The translations under genes were made by a program, and so were the position numbers. From assembly GCF_014203425.1 (NCBI RefSeq), contig NZ_JACHJC010000001.1, positions 4,428,001-4,492,000 on the forward strand: a DNA stretch of 64,000 nucleotides, written 5' to 3'. The DNA is from Micromonospora echinospora. Its GTDB lineage: Bacteria; Actinomycetota; Actinomycetes; Mycobacteriales; Micromonosporaceae. A model generated the notes under the pieces. It was not told the origin of the DNA and did not search any database. It worked only from the letters and a program-made list of their open reading frames with translations. Of the stretch, positions 39,519 through 46,516 are shown one piece after another (positions within the stretch are counted from its first letter, which is position 1; the number at the start of each line of letters is the position of its first letter).

Positions 39519-40478
39519 TCACACCCCCATCTCGGCCTCGTACGCCCGCCGGTAGCGGCGGCGGGCGTCCGGGGCGAGACACACGTGCCAGGCCTGTCCC
39601 TCGTCGACCACGTTCACCTCGCCCGCGTCCTGGCGGGCCAGCAGCAGTCCGGCGAGGGCCGAACGGGCGTCGAAGCGCTCGTACCACTCCAGCTCGACGT
39701 CGGCGGCCCAGCCGAGGCAGTGCCCGCTGGGCACCATCGCGGCGTACCCGAGGCGGCGCAACCGGTACTGGTGCTCGGCGCTGCGGGCCAGGCTGGTCAC
39801 CCAGAGCGGCGGCGTGCGGTCCGGGGCGACGGCCGCGAACTCCCGGGCCAGGTCGTTGAGGAACGCGATCATCTCGCGGCGGGCCCGGCGGAACAGCAGA
39901 CCGGCGGTACGCGGCGTGGCGTCCGGAAGCAGCCGCCGCCGCACCGCGCGCAGGCCCCGCCCCACGACCGTGGCGGCCTGCTCCTGATAGCGGAACTCGA
40001 TCAGCCCGCGCCGGCGCAGCCACTCCAGGTCGACCAGTTCGGCGCTGGTGCGGACCTGGTCGTCGGTGAGGAACGTCGGGGCGTCCCGCCACCAGAGCAC
40101 GTCGACGCGGGACAGCAGGTAGATCCGTACCAGCGCGGTGAGGTCCTGCGCCGAGCTGCGCGCGTTGGGCTGGTAGCGGGCCATCTCCAGCAGCAGCGTC
40201 TCGCGGGCCCCGATCAGCCCCTGGGGCGTGGCGTCGAGGACGGCGGCGATGGCCGGCTCGCGCAGCCGCTGGTCGAGCAGCACCTGGCGGGCGGTTGCCG
40301 ACGGCGCGTCGGCCAGCGCGCCCACCTCGACCAGGAGTTCCGCCACCGCCGCCCGGTACGCGGACAGGTCCGGCGCGGCATCGGAGCGCCGGCCGGCGGC
40401 GGGCACCCGGCGGGCGGGAGCGGTGGACGTGACGGCGGGACCGGGCTGGCGACCGGGGCTGCGGCTGGGCACTCGCAT
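39519..40478 (-). CDS. DUF5715 family protein with M15-peptidase motif
   Basis: The 319-residue protein has a Ser/Pro-rich N terminus, a helical middle ('LVRIYLLSRVDVLWWRDAPTFL', 'MIAFLNDLAREFAAV') and a C-terminal segment that carries PSGHCLGWAADVE, the SxHxxGxAxD zinc signature of peptidase family M15. A Cys and another His (WHVCLAP) follow. Family members are annotated as DUF5715; a cell-wall or peptide hydrolase activity is inferred from the motif. It is translated just ahead of asnB, probably from one mRNA. Confidence 0.8.
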   Translation of the reverse strand: MRVPSRSPGRQPGPAVTSTAPARRVPAAGRRSDAAPDLSAYRAAVAELLVEVGALADAPSATARQVLLDQRLREPAIAAVLDATPQGLIGARETLLLEMARYQPNARSSAQDLTALVRIYLLSRVDVLWWRDAPTFLTDDQVRTSAELVDLEWLRRRGLIEFRYQEQAATVVGRGLRAVRRRLLPDATPRTAGLLFRRARREMIAFLNDLAREFAAVAPDRTPPLWVTSLARSAEHQYRLRRLGYAAMVPSGHCLGWAADVELEWYERFDARSALAGLLLARQDAGEVNVVDEGQAWHVCLAPDARRRYRRAYEAEMGV

Positions 40479-40544
40479 GGTCTCCGTCCCCTCTCGGTCG
40501 GGACACGGCGTGACGTGATCTGCGCACACCGTAATTACCGAAGG

Positions 40545-40580: not shown

Positions 40581-41375
40581 TCAGGTGGCGAACCGACGCG
40601 TTCGTTCCTGCACCTCGTCGTATCCGGGCGGCGCCGGCAGTCCCGCGTCGTGCCCGGCGGCGATCGCGTCCGCGAGGTGCAGCGCCGCGCCGAGGGCCGC
40701 CCGGAACAGCAGCGAGCCGGTGCTGACCCGGGCCGCGCCGAGCCGGCCCAGGGCGGCCGGGTCCGGGCCGCCCGGCCGGTACAGCACGTTCACCGGCAAC
40801 CCCGCCTCGGCCGCCAGGACGCCCACCAGGTCGTCTGGTAAGCCGGGCACGAACAGGCCGTCCGCGCCGGCTGCACGGAACACCGCCGCTCGCCGCTGCG
40901 CCTCGCCCAGCGGCGACGGCACGTCCAGCCACCAGGCGTCGGTGCGGGCGTTGACGAAGATCCCCGGGACGGCCGCGCGGACCGCCGCGATAGTGGCGGC
41001 GACGTGCTCCGCGGGGGCCAGGCACCCGTCCGGGCGGCCGTCCTCCAGGTTCACGCCGACCACGCCGAGGGCGGCCAGCTCGCCGACGTAGCGCGCCACC
41101 TCGGCCGGGTCGTCGTGGAAGCCGTCCTCGATGTCGACGGTGAGCAGCGCCGGCAGGCGCCGCAGCCGGTACGCCAGCTCCAGCGTCTCGGCCCGGGTCG
41201 CGCGGACCGCGTCGGGCCGGCCGGCGGCCGCCGCGACGCCCAGGCTCGTCGTGCCGATCGCCGGGAATCCCCGGTCGGCGAGCGCCGCGGCGGACGCGTG
41301 GTCCCAGGCGTTCGGCAGCAGCAGCGGGTCGCCGGGCCGGTGCAGCTCACGGAACGCGCGGTACCTGTCGGTCAT
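40581..41375 (-). CDS. PEP mutase / isocitrate lyase superfamily enzyme
   Basis: The 264-residue protein shows 'LLLPNAWDHASAAALADRGFPAIGTTSLGVA' at the start, DIEDGFHDDP and GVNLEDG (Mg2+-binding Asp/Glu residues) and IFVNARTDAWW, as in oxaloacetate decarboxylase, 2-methylisocitrate lyase and PEP mutase relatives. The exact reaction is unknown. Its ATG overlaps the stop of the P450 gene (41372-41375), so the two proteins are made together, and both should answer to the ArsR-type operator upstream of the P450. Confidence 0.88.
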   Translation of the reverse strand: MTDRYRAFRELHRPGDPLLLPNAWDHASAAALADRGFPAIGTTSLGVAAAAGRPDAVRATRAETLELAYRLRRLPALLTVDIEDGFHDDPAEVARYVGELAALGVVGVNLEDGRPDGCLAPAEHVAATIAAVRAAVPGIFVNARTDAWWLDVPSPLGEAQRRAAVFRAAGADGLFVPGLPDDLVGVLAAEAGLPVNVLYRPGGPDPAALGRLGAARVSTGSLLFRAALGAALHLADAIAAGHDAGLPAPPGYDEVQERTRRFAT

Positions 41376-42355: not shown

Positions 42356-42378
42356 CGCTCGACCGTATGGTGCGAACG

Positions 42379-42396
42379 GTTCGGTCCCGGCCGAAC
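42379..42396. promoter_or_regulatory. Operator A, GTTCGG-N6-CCGAAC
   Basis: The 18-bp inverted repeat GTTCGG-TCCCGG-CCGAAC starts 24 bp upstream of the P450 ATG. An extra half-site CGAAC (42373-42377) overlaps, making CGAAC-G-GTTCG. The same repeat, with the same 6-bp spacer, lies 24 bp upstream of the ArsR-type gene. Confidence 0.72.
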
Positions 42397-42409
42397 GATC
42401 CGCGCGCCC

Positions 42410-43153
42410 TCAGGCGCGTGCCGGGCCGGTGTCCCGGGAGGCGGGCGGGGCCAGCAGCGCCGGGTCGAGCGCGAGCGCCTCGGCCAGCGCGTCCCGCCCG
42501 GCCGCGGTGAGCCGCACCGCCCGCCCGGCGCCACGCGTCGTCCAGCCGAGGTCGAGGAAGCGACCGCACAGGGCCGCCCCGAGCGCCCCGGCCAGGTGTG
42601 GGCGCCGCTCGGTCCAGTCCAGGCAGTCGCGTACGAGGGGTCGCCGGGCGGCCCGCAGCGGTTCCACGGGTACGCCCAGTCCGGCCAGCCAGGACACTCC
42701 GGCGCCGGTCAGCGCCAGGCCGCCGGAACGGTCGAGCACGCCGCGGGTGAGCAGGGCGTCGTGCAGCAGCACGCCGAGCCGCCCGGCCAGGTGGTCGTAG
42801 CAGGTCCGGGCGTACGCCAGGGCGGTGGCGGCCGACGCGGCGCGCAACGTGCGGGGCGGGGTGTCCGGGGCGGGGGCCCGCGCGGCCAGGTCCTCGATGA
42901 GCTGGGCGACGGCCGGGCCGGCGAGGCGGACGTAGCGGTGGCGGCCCTGCCGCTGTTCGACCAGCAGGCCGCCCGCCACCAGCCGGGTGAGGTGGTCGCT
43001 GGCGGTGGACGCGGTGACCCCGGCGGCGCGGGCCAGCTCCCCGGCGGTCCAGGCGCGCCCGTCGAGCAGGGTGAGGCAGAAGCCGGCCCGGGTCGGGTCG
43101 GCGAGCAGCGCGGCGAACCCCGCCAGCCCTCGGCCGTCGGCGCGGATGGTCAT
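42410..43153 (-). CDS. ArsR-type winged-helix regulator with C-terminal domain
   Basis: In this 247-residue protein the N-terminal winged helix (about 8-75) fits ArsR/HTH_5: 'LADPTRAGFCLTLLDGRAWTAGELARAAGVTASTASDHLTRLVAGGLLVEQRQGRHRYVRL'. A C-terminal domain of about 150 residues is helical and ends in Ala/Leu-rich helices; it may hold the ligand. ATG at 43153 is preceded by a GTTCGG-N6-CCGAAC palindrome; the P450 operon, transcribed away from its stop, has the same site. It therefore probably represses itself and the P450 operon. Confidence 0.88.
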   Translation of the reverse strand: MTIRADGRGLAGFAALLADPTRAGFCLTLLDGRAWTAGELARAAGVTASTASDHLTRLVAGGLLVEQRQGRHRYVRLAGPAVAQLIEDLAARAPAPDTPPRTLRAASAATALAYARTCYDHLAGRLGVLLHDALLTRGVLDRSGGLALTGAGVSWLAGLGVPVEPLRAARRPLVRDCLDWTERRPHLAGALGAALCGRFLDLGWTTRGAGRAVRLTAAGRDALAEALALDPALLAPPASRDTGPARA

Positions 43154-43176
43154 CCGCCCATGCTGGCACGGCCACG

Positions 43177-43194
43177 GTTCGGGCCGCGCCGAAC
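43177..43194. promoter_or_regulatory. Operator B, GTTCGG-N6-CCGAAC
   Basis: GTTCGG-GCCGCG-CCGAAC begins 24 bp upstream of the ArsR-type start, the same distance as operator A from the P450 start. It is also 85-102 bp upstream of the divergent GH43 gene, so it may affect that promoter. Confidence 0.72.
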
Positions 43195-43278
43195 GGTGCC
43201 GGTGCTCTTTACACACGAGTCTCCAACGTTGTAGAAACGGTGGCACCGCACCTCCGTCTATTCCCGAGGGCAGGCCCG

Positions 43279-45571: not shown

Positions 45572-46516
45572 TCAGATCGCGGTTCCGGGTGGAGATTTCA
45601 GGAAGGACGCCGCTTCGGCCGGGTAGCCGCCATGACCCGACCGGAGGGCGACGGCCGCCAGACGAATCAGGTCGATGTTGACGCCAGCGGCACCACTCGG
45701 GTCATGCACCTGCAGCCGCACCTCCACACTCACCGCCGTCTCGGCCCAGCCCTGCGCTTCGATGTTGAGGTGGGCGATCTTGTGGGATCGCAGATGCGGC
45801 ATGTACGCCAGAGGCGCCATCTGGACCTTCCCGGACGACCCCAGGGCGTTCAGCTTGGACTGCTTCTTGGTGTTCGGGTTCTCGACCAGGTTGCGGAAGT
45901 CCTCGGTCCCGCCCAGATTGACCTGGTAGGAACTGCTCAGAGTGAGGCCACGCTCCTCGATCAGCCGCAGCAGTGCGTGGTGCAGCACGGAGGTGCCGAA
46001 CTGGCTGGCCAGATCGTCGCCGAGCAACGGCACACGGGCTTCCTCGAAACGTGCCAGTAGTGACGCCTGCCTGGCCACCGGGTCCGACGTGGTGTTCACG
46101 AACGCGACTCCCGCCATCAGCGCCGCCTCGGCGTAAGCCCGAGCCGTGTCCGGCCGGCCGCTCGGAGCGGAGTAGAGCAGCACCTCCGCCCCTTCCAGCG
46201 CGTGCGCCACCCGTTCGACTTCCGTCGAGTCCACCAGGCCACGCCGCACCGTCACGCCGGCGGGCGGCAGTTCGGTGTCGAGGCGCGGGAAGTTGTTGGG
46301 CGGCATGAATATCGCCTCGTGGAGATCCTTGCCCACCTTTCGGTCGGACATGGCGAAAGCGGCGACGACGTCGATGTCGCTGACGCCCAGTCCCGCGATC
46401 TCTGGCCGGTGGAGCCCGACCAGGCTGCCGGTGTTGCGGTAGAAGGCGATGCCCTGCACCAACGCCGACGTGTTGTTGCCTACACCGACGACCGCCAATC
46501 GAACACTGTCGATCAT
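45572..46516 (-). CDS. Inositol-3-phosphate synthase homologue
   Basis: The 314-residue protein matches MIPS over its full length: RLAVVGVGNNTSALVQG (NAD site), AGVAFVNTTSDP, LLGDDLASQFGTSVLHHALL, YQVNLGGTEDF, and AGVNIDLIRLAAVALRSG ending FLKSPP. It is about 45 residues shorter than the housekeeping actinobacterial enzyme and lacks its insert region. It would turn glucose-6-phosphate to inositol-3-phosphate or a related cyclitol. Codon use is milder in GC than neighbours, suggesting later acquisition. It may be a paralogue used for a specialised product. Confidence 0.85.
   Translation of the reverse strand: MIDSVRLAVVGVGNNTSALVQGIAFYRNTGSLVGLHRPEIAGLGVSDIDVVAAFAMSDRKVGKDLHEAIFMPPNNFPRLDTELPPAGVTVRRGLVDSTEVERVAHALEGAEVLLYSAPSGRPDTARAYAEAALMAGVAFVNTTSDPVARQASLLARFEEARVPLLGDDLASQFGTSVLHHALLRLIEERGLTLSSSYQVNLGGTEDFRNLVENPNTKKQSKLNALGSSGKVQMAPLAYMPHLRSHKIAHLNIEAQGWAETAVSVEVRLQVHDPSGAAGVNIDLIRLAAVALRSGHGGYPAEAASFLKSPPGTAI

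Follow-up and report, generated by a model that had tools for sequence, protein, structure and literature searches.

Twin palindromes and a predicted ArsR-type switch for a compact P450/PEP-mutase-superfamily operon in Micromonospora echinospora

The stretch of Micromonospora echinospora DNA analyzed here, referred to as the window, spans 64,000 nucleotides and includes a run of minus-strand genes encoding, in order, an ArsR/SmtB-type regulator, a cytochrome P450, and a member of the PEP-mutase/isocitrate-lyase enzyme superfamily, with a GH43 gene divergent from arsR (Table 1). The ArsR and P450 proteins share 96% and 97% identity, respectively, with those of M. chalcea. An earlier note on this DNA had reported two exact copies of the palindrome GTTCGG-N6-CCGAAC (O1 and O2), each at an equal 24-bp distance from a start codon, as well as an ATGA overlap between the P450 and PEP-mutase-superfamily genes. 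Each of these observations is borne out by the sequence: both copies are present and the window has no third, each begins 24 bases from the first base of its start codon (43153 for arsR and 42355 for the P450), and the P450 stop codon at 41372-41374 overlaps the ATG at 41373-41375. Two other minus-strand genes were also inspected. The one at 45572-46516 encodes an inositol-1-phosphate-synthase-like protein scoring 166.5, far under the mycothiol INO1 cut-off of 638, while the one at 39519-40529 has only a weak DUF5715 match and adjoins the PEP-mutase-superfamily gene in many Micromonospora loci.

Table 1. Window coordinates of the features at the arsR/P450/PEP-mutase-superfamily locus.
Feature	Position	Strand or placement	Characteristics
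arsR (ArsR/SmtB-type winged-helix, 247 aa)	42410..43153	(-)	HTH_20 45.2 bits, cut-off 27
Compact cytochrome P450, 327 aa	41372..42355	(-)	heme Cys290; ExxR E220-R223; I-helix QAADAT without acid
PEP-mutase/isocitrate-lyase superfamily enzyme, 264 aa	40581..41375	(-)	PF13714 238.8 bits, cut-off 31.5
Predicted operator O1, GTTCGG-N6-CCGAAC	43177..43194	-41 to -24 relative to arsR start codon	exact; conserved before arsR of relatives
Predicted operator O2, GTTCGG-N6-CCGAAC	42379..42396	-41 to -24 relative to P450 start codon	exact; conserved before P450 of relatives
Putative arsR -10 box CAGCAT (degenerate TAnnnT)	43160..43165	(-); -12 to -7	from geometry and the Actinoplanes consensus (PMC7682106)
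Putative P450 operon -10 box TACGGT	42362..42367	(-); -12 to -7 relative to start codon	

When up to two mismatches were allowed, the window yielded eight matches versus 5.68 expected, which is close to chance, and thus only the exact pair is informative at this scale. The complete genome (7,125,866 bp) has four exact palindromes, compared with none for a reversed control pattern and ~0.6 expected from local base composition, and six copies of the core TTCGG-N6-CCGAA, compared with one for its reversed control. With four exact and six core copies in 7.1 Mb, the motif is not frequent. O1 and O2 are the only two of the six perfect-core sites that have the promoter geometry described below, as none of the other four has a start codon 41 or 42 nt away or a TAnnnT box. 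The two remaining exact copies, which lie within a sensor-kinase-like frame and ~145 bp before a YbaK-like gene (both named by eye), were rejected as further sites of this kind and look like chance occurrences. Since chance alone predicts ~0.6 exact copies in such a genome, and two others seem to have arisen that way, one might suppose that the O1/O2 pair is likewise a coincidence. This supposition is refuted by the conservation and fixed geometry of the sites in relatives, and we consider its probability negligible.

For the site before arsR, relatives of the regulator were collected from 200 genomes of the family (114 with a match; 30 loci), 80 GTDB loci, and 40 further stretches. After removal of the window's own locus and five loci with a repeated upstream stretch, the count comprises 144 loci and represents only part of the 114 ArsR-bearing genomes. 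Positions -90 to -1 were scanned with ≤2 mismatches, and expectations were derived from dinucleotide-shuffled sequences (100 per locus). Scored with the window's own pattern among relatives that are not independent samples, a site precedes arsR in 56 of the 90 loci with ≥50% identity (1.0 expected), and no site within two mismatches was found in the other 34 of 90. Broken down by identity, the site occurs in 13/14 loci at ≥80% (0.2 expected), 3/19 at 70-80% (0.17 expected), 18/25 at 60-70% (0.33 expected), 22/32 at 50-60% (0.3 expected), and 1/54 at <50% (0.08 expected). The dip at 70-80% largely reflects a single Micromonospora subclade in which the arsR site has been lost, while the P450 site is mostly kept; with only three of 19 loci retaining it, autoregulation seems to have been lost in that group. 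The arm conservation envisaged by the earlier note therefore holds for the core, but not for the exact 18-mer, which is absent genome-wide from 22 of 61 Micromonospora genomes because the outermost base commonly differs in relatives. The other 39 have it somewhere in the genome, with 0-4 copies per genome across all 61, and these counts mix real and chance copies.

The P450 gene is likewise preceded by a site in most loci. Among 69 distinct loci, from which the loci of the window's own genome, repeated loci, and the four of 73 candidate frames having no Cys after FG were removed, 66 have a site with ≤2 mismatches (1.65 expected from 20 shuffles per locus) and 54 have one with ≤1 mismatch (0.10 expected). 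The consensus of these sites adds a Y and an R beside the arms, i.e. TTCGG-Y-N4-R-CCGAA. P450 and PEP-mutase-superfamily genes lie within 2 kb of each other in 58 of the 73 P450-bearing genomes, and 54 of the 73 have an ArsR gene no more than 6 kb from the P450. The remaining 19 have no ArsR match that close, and in 11 of them the contig bearing the P450 has none at all. Excluding the fragmentary G002 and G197, 16 of the 17 detached P450 genes retain a site with ≤2 mismatches (13 found by script and three by eye), L178 being the sole exception. The single contig of G119 is one example, as the ArsR and PEP-mutase-superfamily genes have one site in common (L151), and a separate site (L176) precedes the P450, which is located at a distance of 1.47 Mb. 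Similarly, the P450 lies beyond GH43 in L035, L036, and L041 and its site is still found at -41.

Adjacency alone cannot assign a binding protein to a palindrome. Consequently, it is conceivable that a different regulator owns the site and governs arsR as well as the P450 operon, with ArsR being merely one of its targets. We regard this as quite unlikely. The site precedes arsR in 27/45 loci with the P450 or PEP-mutase-superfamily gene in the fetched stretch and in 29/45 loci without them, a few of the latter (e.g. L010 and L011) having a P450 just beyond that stretch; being about equally common in both sets, the site appears to go with the regulator. ArsR is also found in all 73 of the 200 family genomes that encode the P450, even though only 114 of the 200 encode ArsR. 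Lastly, a looser form of the motif, TTCG-N8-CGAA, precedes 11 of the 54 distant ArsR relatives (<50% identity, many in other phyla), versus 0.035 expected from shuffled bases.

The spacing between these sites and their genes is highly constrained. For all 66 P450 sites, an in-frame start codon occurs 41 (44 loci), 42 (20 loci), or 43 nt (two loci) from the first base of the site, and for all 56 arsR sites it occurs at 40-43 nt, with exactly 41 nt in 47 of them. In 62 of the 66 P450 matches, a TAnnnT box is found at -12 to -7 or one base further upstream and hence stands 6-7 nt before the P450 start, while the corresponding arsR box in the window is degenerate. For Actinoplanes, which belongs to the family of the window's genome, a transcription start survey lists TAnnnT at 98% of mapped starts, at 6.2 +/- 1.1 nt from the transcription start, and 1179 of 4228 starts as leaderless (PMC7682106). 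The most economical reading of the geometry in the window is that both promoters are leaderless with the -35 region beneath the operator, which would also best explain the equal 24-bp offsets. In RNA, the arms could in principle pair as a GC-rich stem of 6 bp around a 6-nt loop, but an attenuator or hairpin is very improbable given that the palindrome lies upstream of the inferred transcription start, its inner four spacer bases vary freely, and it occurs between divergent genes. A site beginning at -41 is near the position at which activators contact polymerase, and ligand-dependent dual roles are conceivable, so ArsR might be an activator or a dual regulator rather than a simple repressor. 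We consider this unlikely, because the -35 region itself would be under the site, because loci such as L034 and L120 have a single site common to divergent genes, and because members of the ArsR family are typically repressors. Repression from a palindrome placed over the promoter is also the usual mode of ArsR/SmtB proteins.

We therefore favor, with a probability of roughly 0.85, a local repressor switch in which the ArsR-type protein acts upon the palindrome to govern both arsR and the P450/PEP-mutase operon. Specifically, we infer that ArsR, probably as a dimer, would bind the 18-bp palindrome over the -35 region of both putative leaderless promoters and thereby block RNA polymerase at its own promoter as well as at the operon promoter. 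An effector, which could be a metal, a thiol-reactive compound, or a small organic compound, would then release ArsR, perhaps via the C-terminal Cys/His residues described below, and the derepressed operon would produce a compact P450-fold heme protein together with the PEP-mutase/isocitrate-lyase superfamily enzyme. The autoregulation and operon control predicted in the earlier note are thus strongly supported by comparative genomics, with sites before 56/90 arsR and 66/69 P450 genes, and O1, O2, and ArsR very probably constitute a real genetic switch for the enzyme pair. The same cannot be said of the divergent GH43 gene, which had been suggested as a possible additional member of the regulon. 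Such membership is unsupported, as several members of the Micromonospora subclade lacking the arsR site still retain GH43 (e.g. L018, L021, L022, and L042), the P450 and its site lie beyond GH43 in three loci, and GH43 carries a different palindrome. The latter (CAACGTTGTA) is located at 43224-43233, often takes the form ACAACGTTGTAAAG upstream of GH43 in relatives, and has just two occurrences genome-wide. Another regulator of this arabinan hydrolase probably acts there, which would place GH43 under its own control.

While the winged helix-turn-helix domain of the regulator is clearly recognized (Table 1), its score against the metalloregulator model NF033788 (HTH_metalloreg) is 51.2 bits, under the cut-off of 55, and with none of the five NCBIfam models matched does its score reach the cut-off. 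Therefore, the protein is best described as ArsR-type, rather than as a proven metalloregulator. Its C-terminal part includes the motifs R-T-C118-Y-D-H121-L-A-G and C177-L-D-W...H186. In an alignment that includes the window protein itself as well as some loci present more than once, C118 and H121 are found in 91/91 close and 46/46 distant aligned sequences, and C177 and H186 in 98-100%. Accordingly, the CxxH (residues 116-124) and C-x8-H (residues 177-189) motifs are nearly invariant in this ArsR subfamily across phyla. As judged from sequence, these residues are a plausible candidate for a metal, thiol, or redox sensor site. In four loci of other actinobacteria (L044, L054, L140, and L141), the ArsR-type gene is divergent from one encoding a small ILYFGTPVVL(L/V)S protein that by eye appears flavin-reductase-like, indicating that the regulator changes its target gene.

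The P450 belongs to an unusual compact family, a point that the earlier note had not seen. Close relatives of the window protein are mostly 300-400 aa (114/120), and a sister group of only ~220 aa occurs in some Micromonospora as well as outside the genus. These short forms are often named hypothetical proteins in their sources, and a precomputed p450 Pfam domain is found in 10 of the 120 listed, the other 110 having no precomputed Pfam domain of any kind. A Streptomyces P450 survey describes how short sequences lacking motifs were set aside as fragments (PMC6408508), which is perhaps why such a family has been overlooked. When the phylum was searched with the short-P450 alignment, scoring seven candidates per genome in a first look and applying a strict threshold, only the window's genome was recovered among 396. 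Given these limits, the result is not read as absence elsewhere, and a Streptomyces contig (L047) has a relative. In the long forms, such as L035, the segment leading from the C helix to the later core differs greatly in length, with VPATA tandem repeats in L035 itself. In L129, L134, and L047, the compact P450 is fused to, or reads on into, a further C-terminal domain, which by eye resembles a stand-alone ArsR neighbor in L143, L148, and L149 and for which the L134 sequence gave no Pfam match.

Whether these proteins are likely to function as P450s has a direct bearing upon the role of the operon. One could argue that they are decaying or heme-free relics, for example related to the P450-derived glycosyltransferase activators, in which case the operon would entail no oxidation. 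The best NCBIfam match of the window P450 is indeed the model for these activators (TIGR04515), albeit at 77.6 bits versus a curated cut-off of 343. The I helix also has no acid preceding its Thr, as QA..[ED]T is found in 0/240 listed relatives and QA...T in 236/240, and ExxR before PP occurs in just 44/120 short forms, compared with 120/120 long ones ([ED]xxR, however, is found in 107/120 short forms). Some functional P450s also lack the I-helix acid, and so its absence does not exclude the proteins from the P450 fold family. Other evidence argues against a relic. Cys290 of the window P450 sits within an F-x-x-G-x-x-x-C-x-G region, a heme-site Cys after FG is retained in 120/120 short and 117/120 long relatives, and the window K helix (AEVLRLDPP) has the ExxR motif. 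The dN/dS ratios range from 0.18-0.44 for the short forms (14 of 27 pairs) and from 0.28-0.66 for the long forms (14 of 74 pairs), and the predicted models, which are of high confidence for the ~220-aa group too, display a P450 core. No glycosyltransferase was found among the six locus proteins scanned. On balance, we consider a relic unlikely, though with an appreciable share of the probability, and favor a heme-binding P450-fold protein.

As for its partner, membership in the PEP-mutase superfamily is clear from the domain score in Table 1, while assignment to any one activity is not: the protein scores 24.5 against the PEP mutase model TIGR02320 (cut-off, 319.55) and 47 against the methylisocitrate lyase model TIGR02317 (cut-off, 354.4). 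Natural fusions of the compact P450 to a PEP-mutase-superfamily enzyme are present in two genomes of one genus (L136:1537-2844 and L196:775-2277), and consequently ~220-residue P450-fold proteins already exist fused to a metabolic enzyme in nature. The fusions suggest that the two proteins may act in one pathway. We know of no pathway linking a compact P450 to a PEP-mutase-superfamily enzyme, and the literature matches listed, which covered few subscription papers, included none on the ArsR/P450/PEP-mutase set and none on natural half-size P450s, which is weak evidence of novelty. There was also no match for DFA0005, one of the nearest structures. Taken together, the locus may represent an undescribed actinobacterial module in which functional compact P450s (as small as ~220 residues, about half the normal size, with the thiolate heme site kept and the oxygen-activation acid lost) would cooperate with their PEP-mutase-superfamily partner in a novel pathway, controlled by a dedicated ArsR repressor acting, also in trans, upon leaderless promoters of fixed geometry, a broader proposition on which we are evenly divided. 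For an uncharacterized ArsR subfamily, the analysis supplies a predicted operator and provisionally defines the regulon, and to our knowledge the ~220-residue family may include the smallest natural heme-thiolate scaffolds.

Several comparisons can be drawn with known systems. Like the ArsR/SmtB metalloregulators CmtR, SmtB, and NolR, the window ArsR has a matching winged-helix domain, and its PDB matches at E <0.1 span the DNA-binding part only. Unlike these proteins, it has ~150 extra C-terminal residues containing the nearly invariant Cys/His set. The structures nearest to the PEP-mutase-superfamily enzyme are DFA0005 (2ze3) and 4mg4, with the match extending over residues 3-242 of 264 (E of 6e-36 to 2ze3), and it also scores far under the cut-off of the carboxyvinyl-carboxyphosphonate phosphorylmutase model. 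In comparison with the bacterial P450s P450BioI, P450eryF, and CYP119, for which the PDB chains listed comprise 354-416 residues, the compact family is smaller, at 327 aa for the window protein and ~220 aa for the sister group, and has no acid before the I-helix Thr. Lastly, the P450-derived glycosyltransferase activators lack the heme Cys, whereas the window P450 keeps it.
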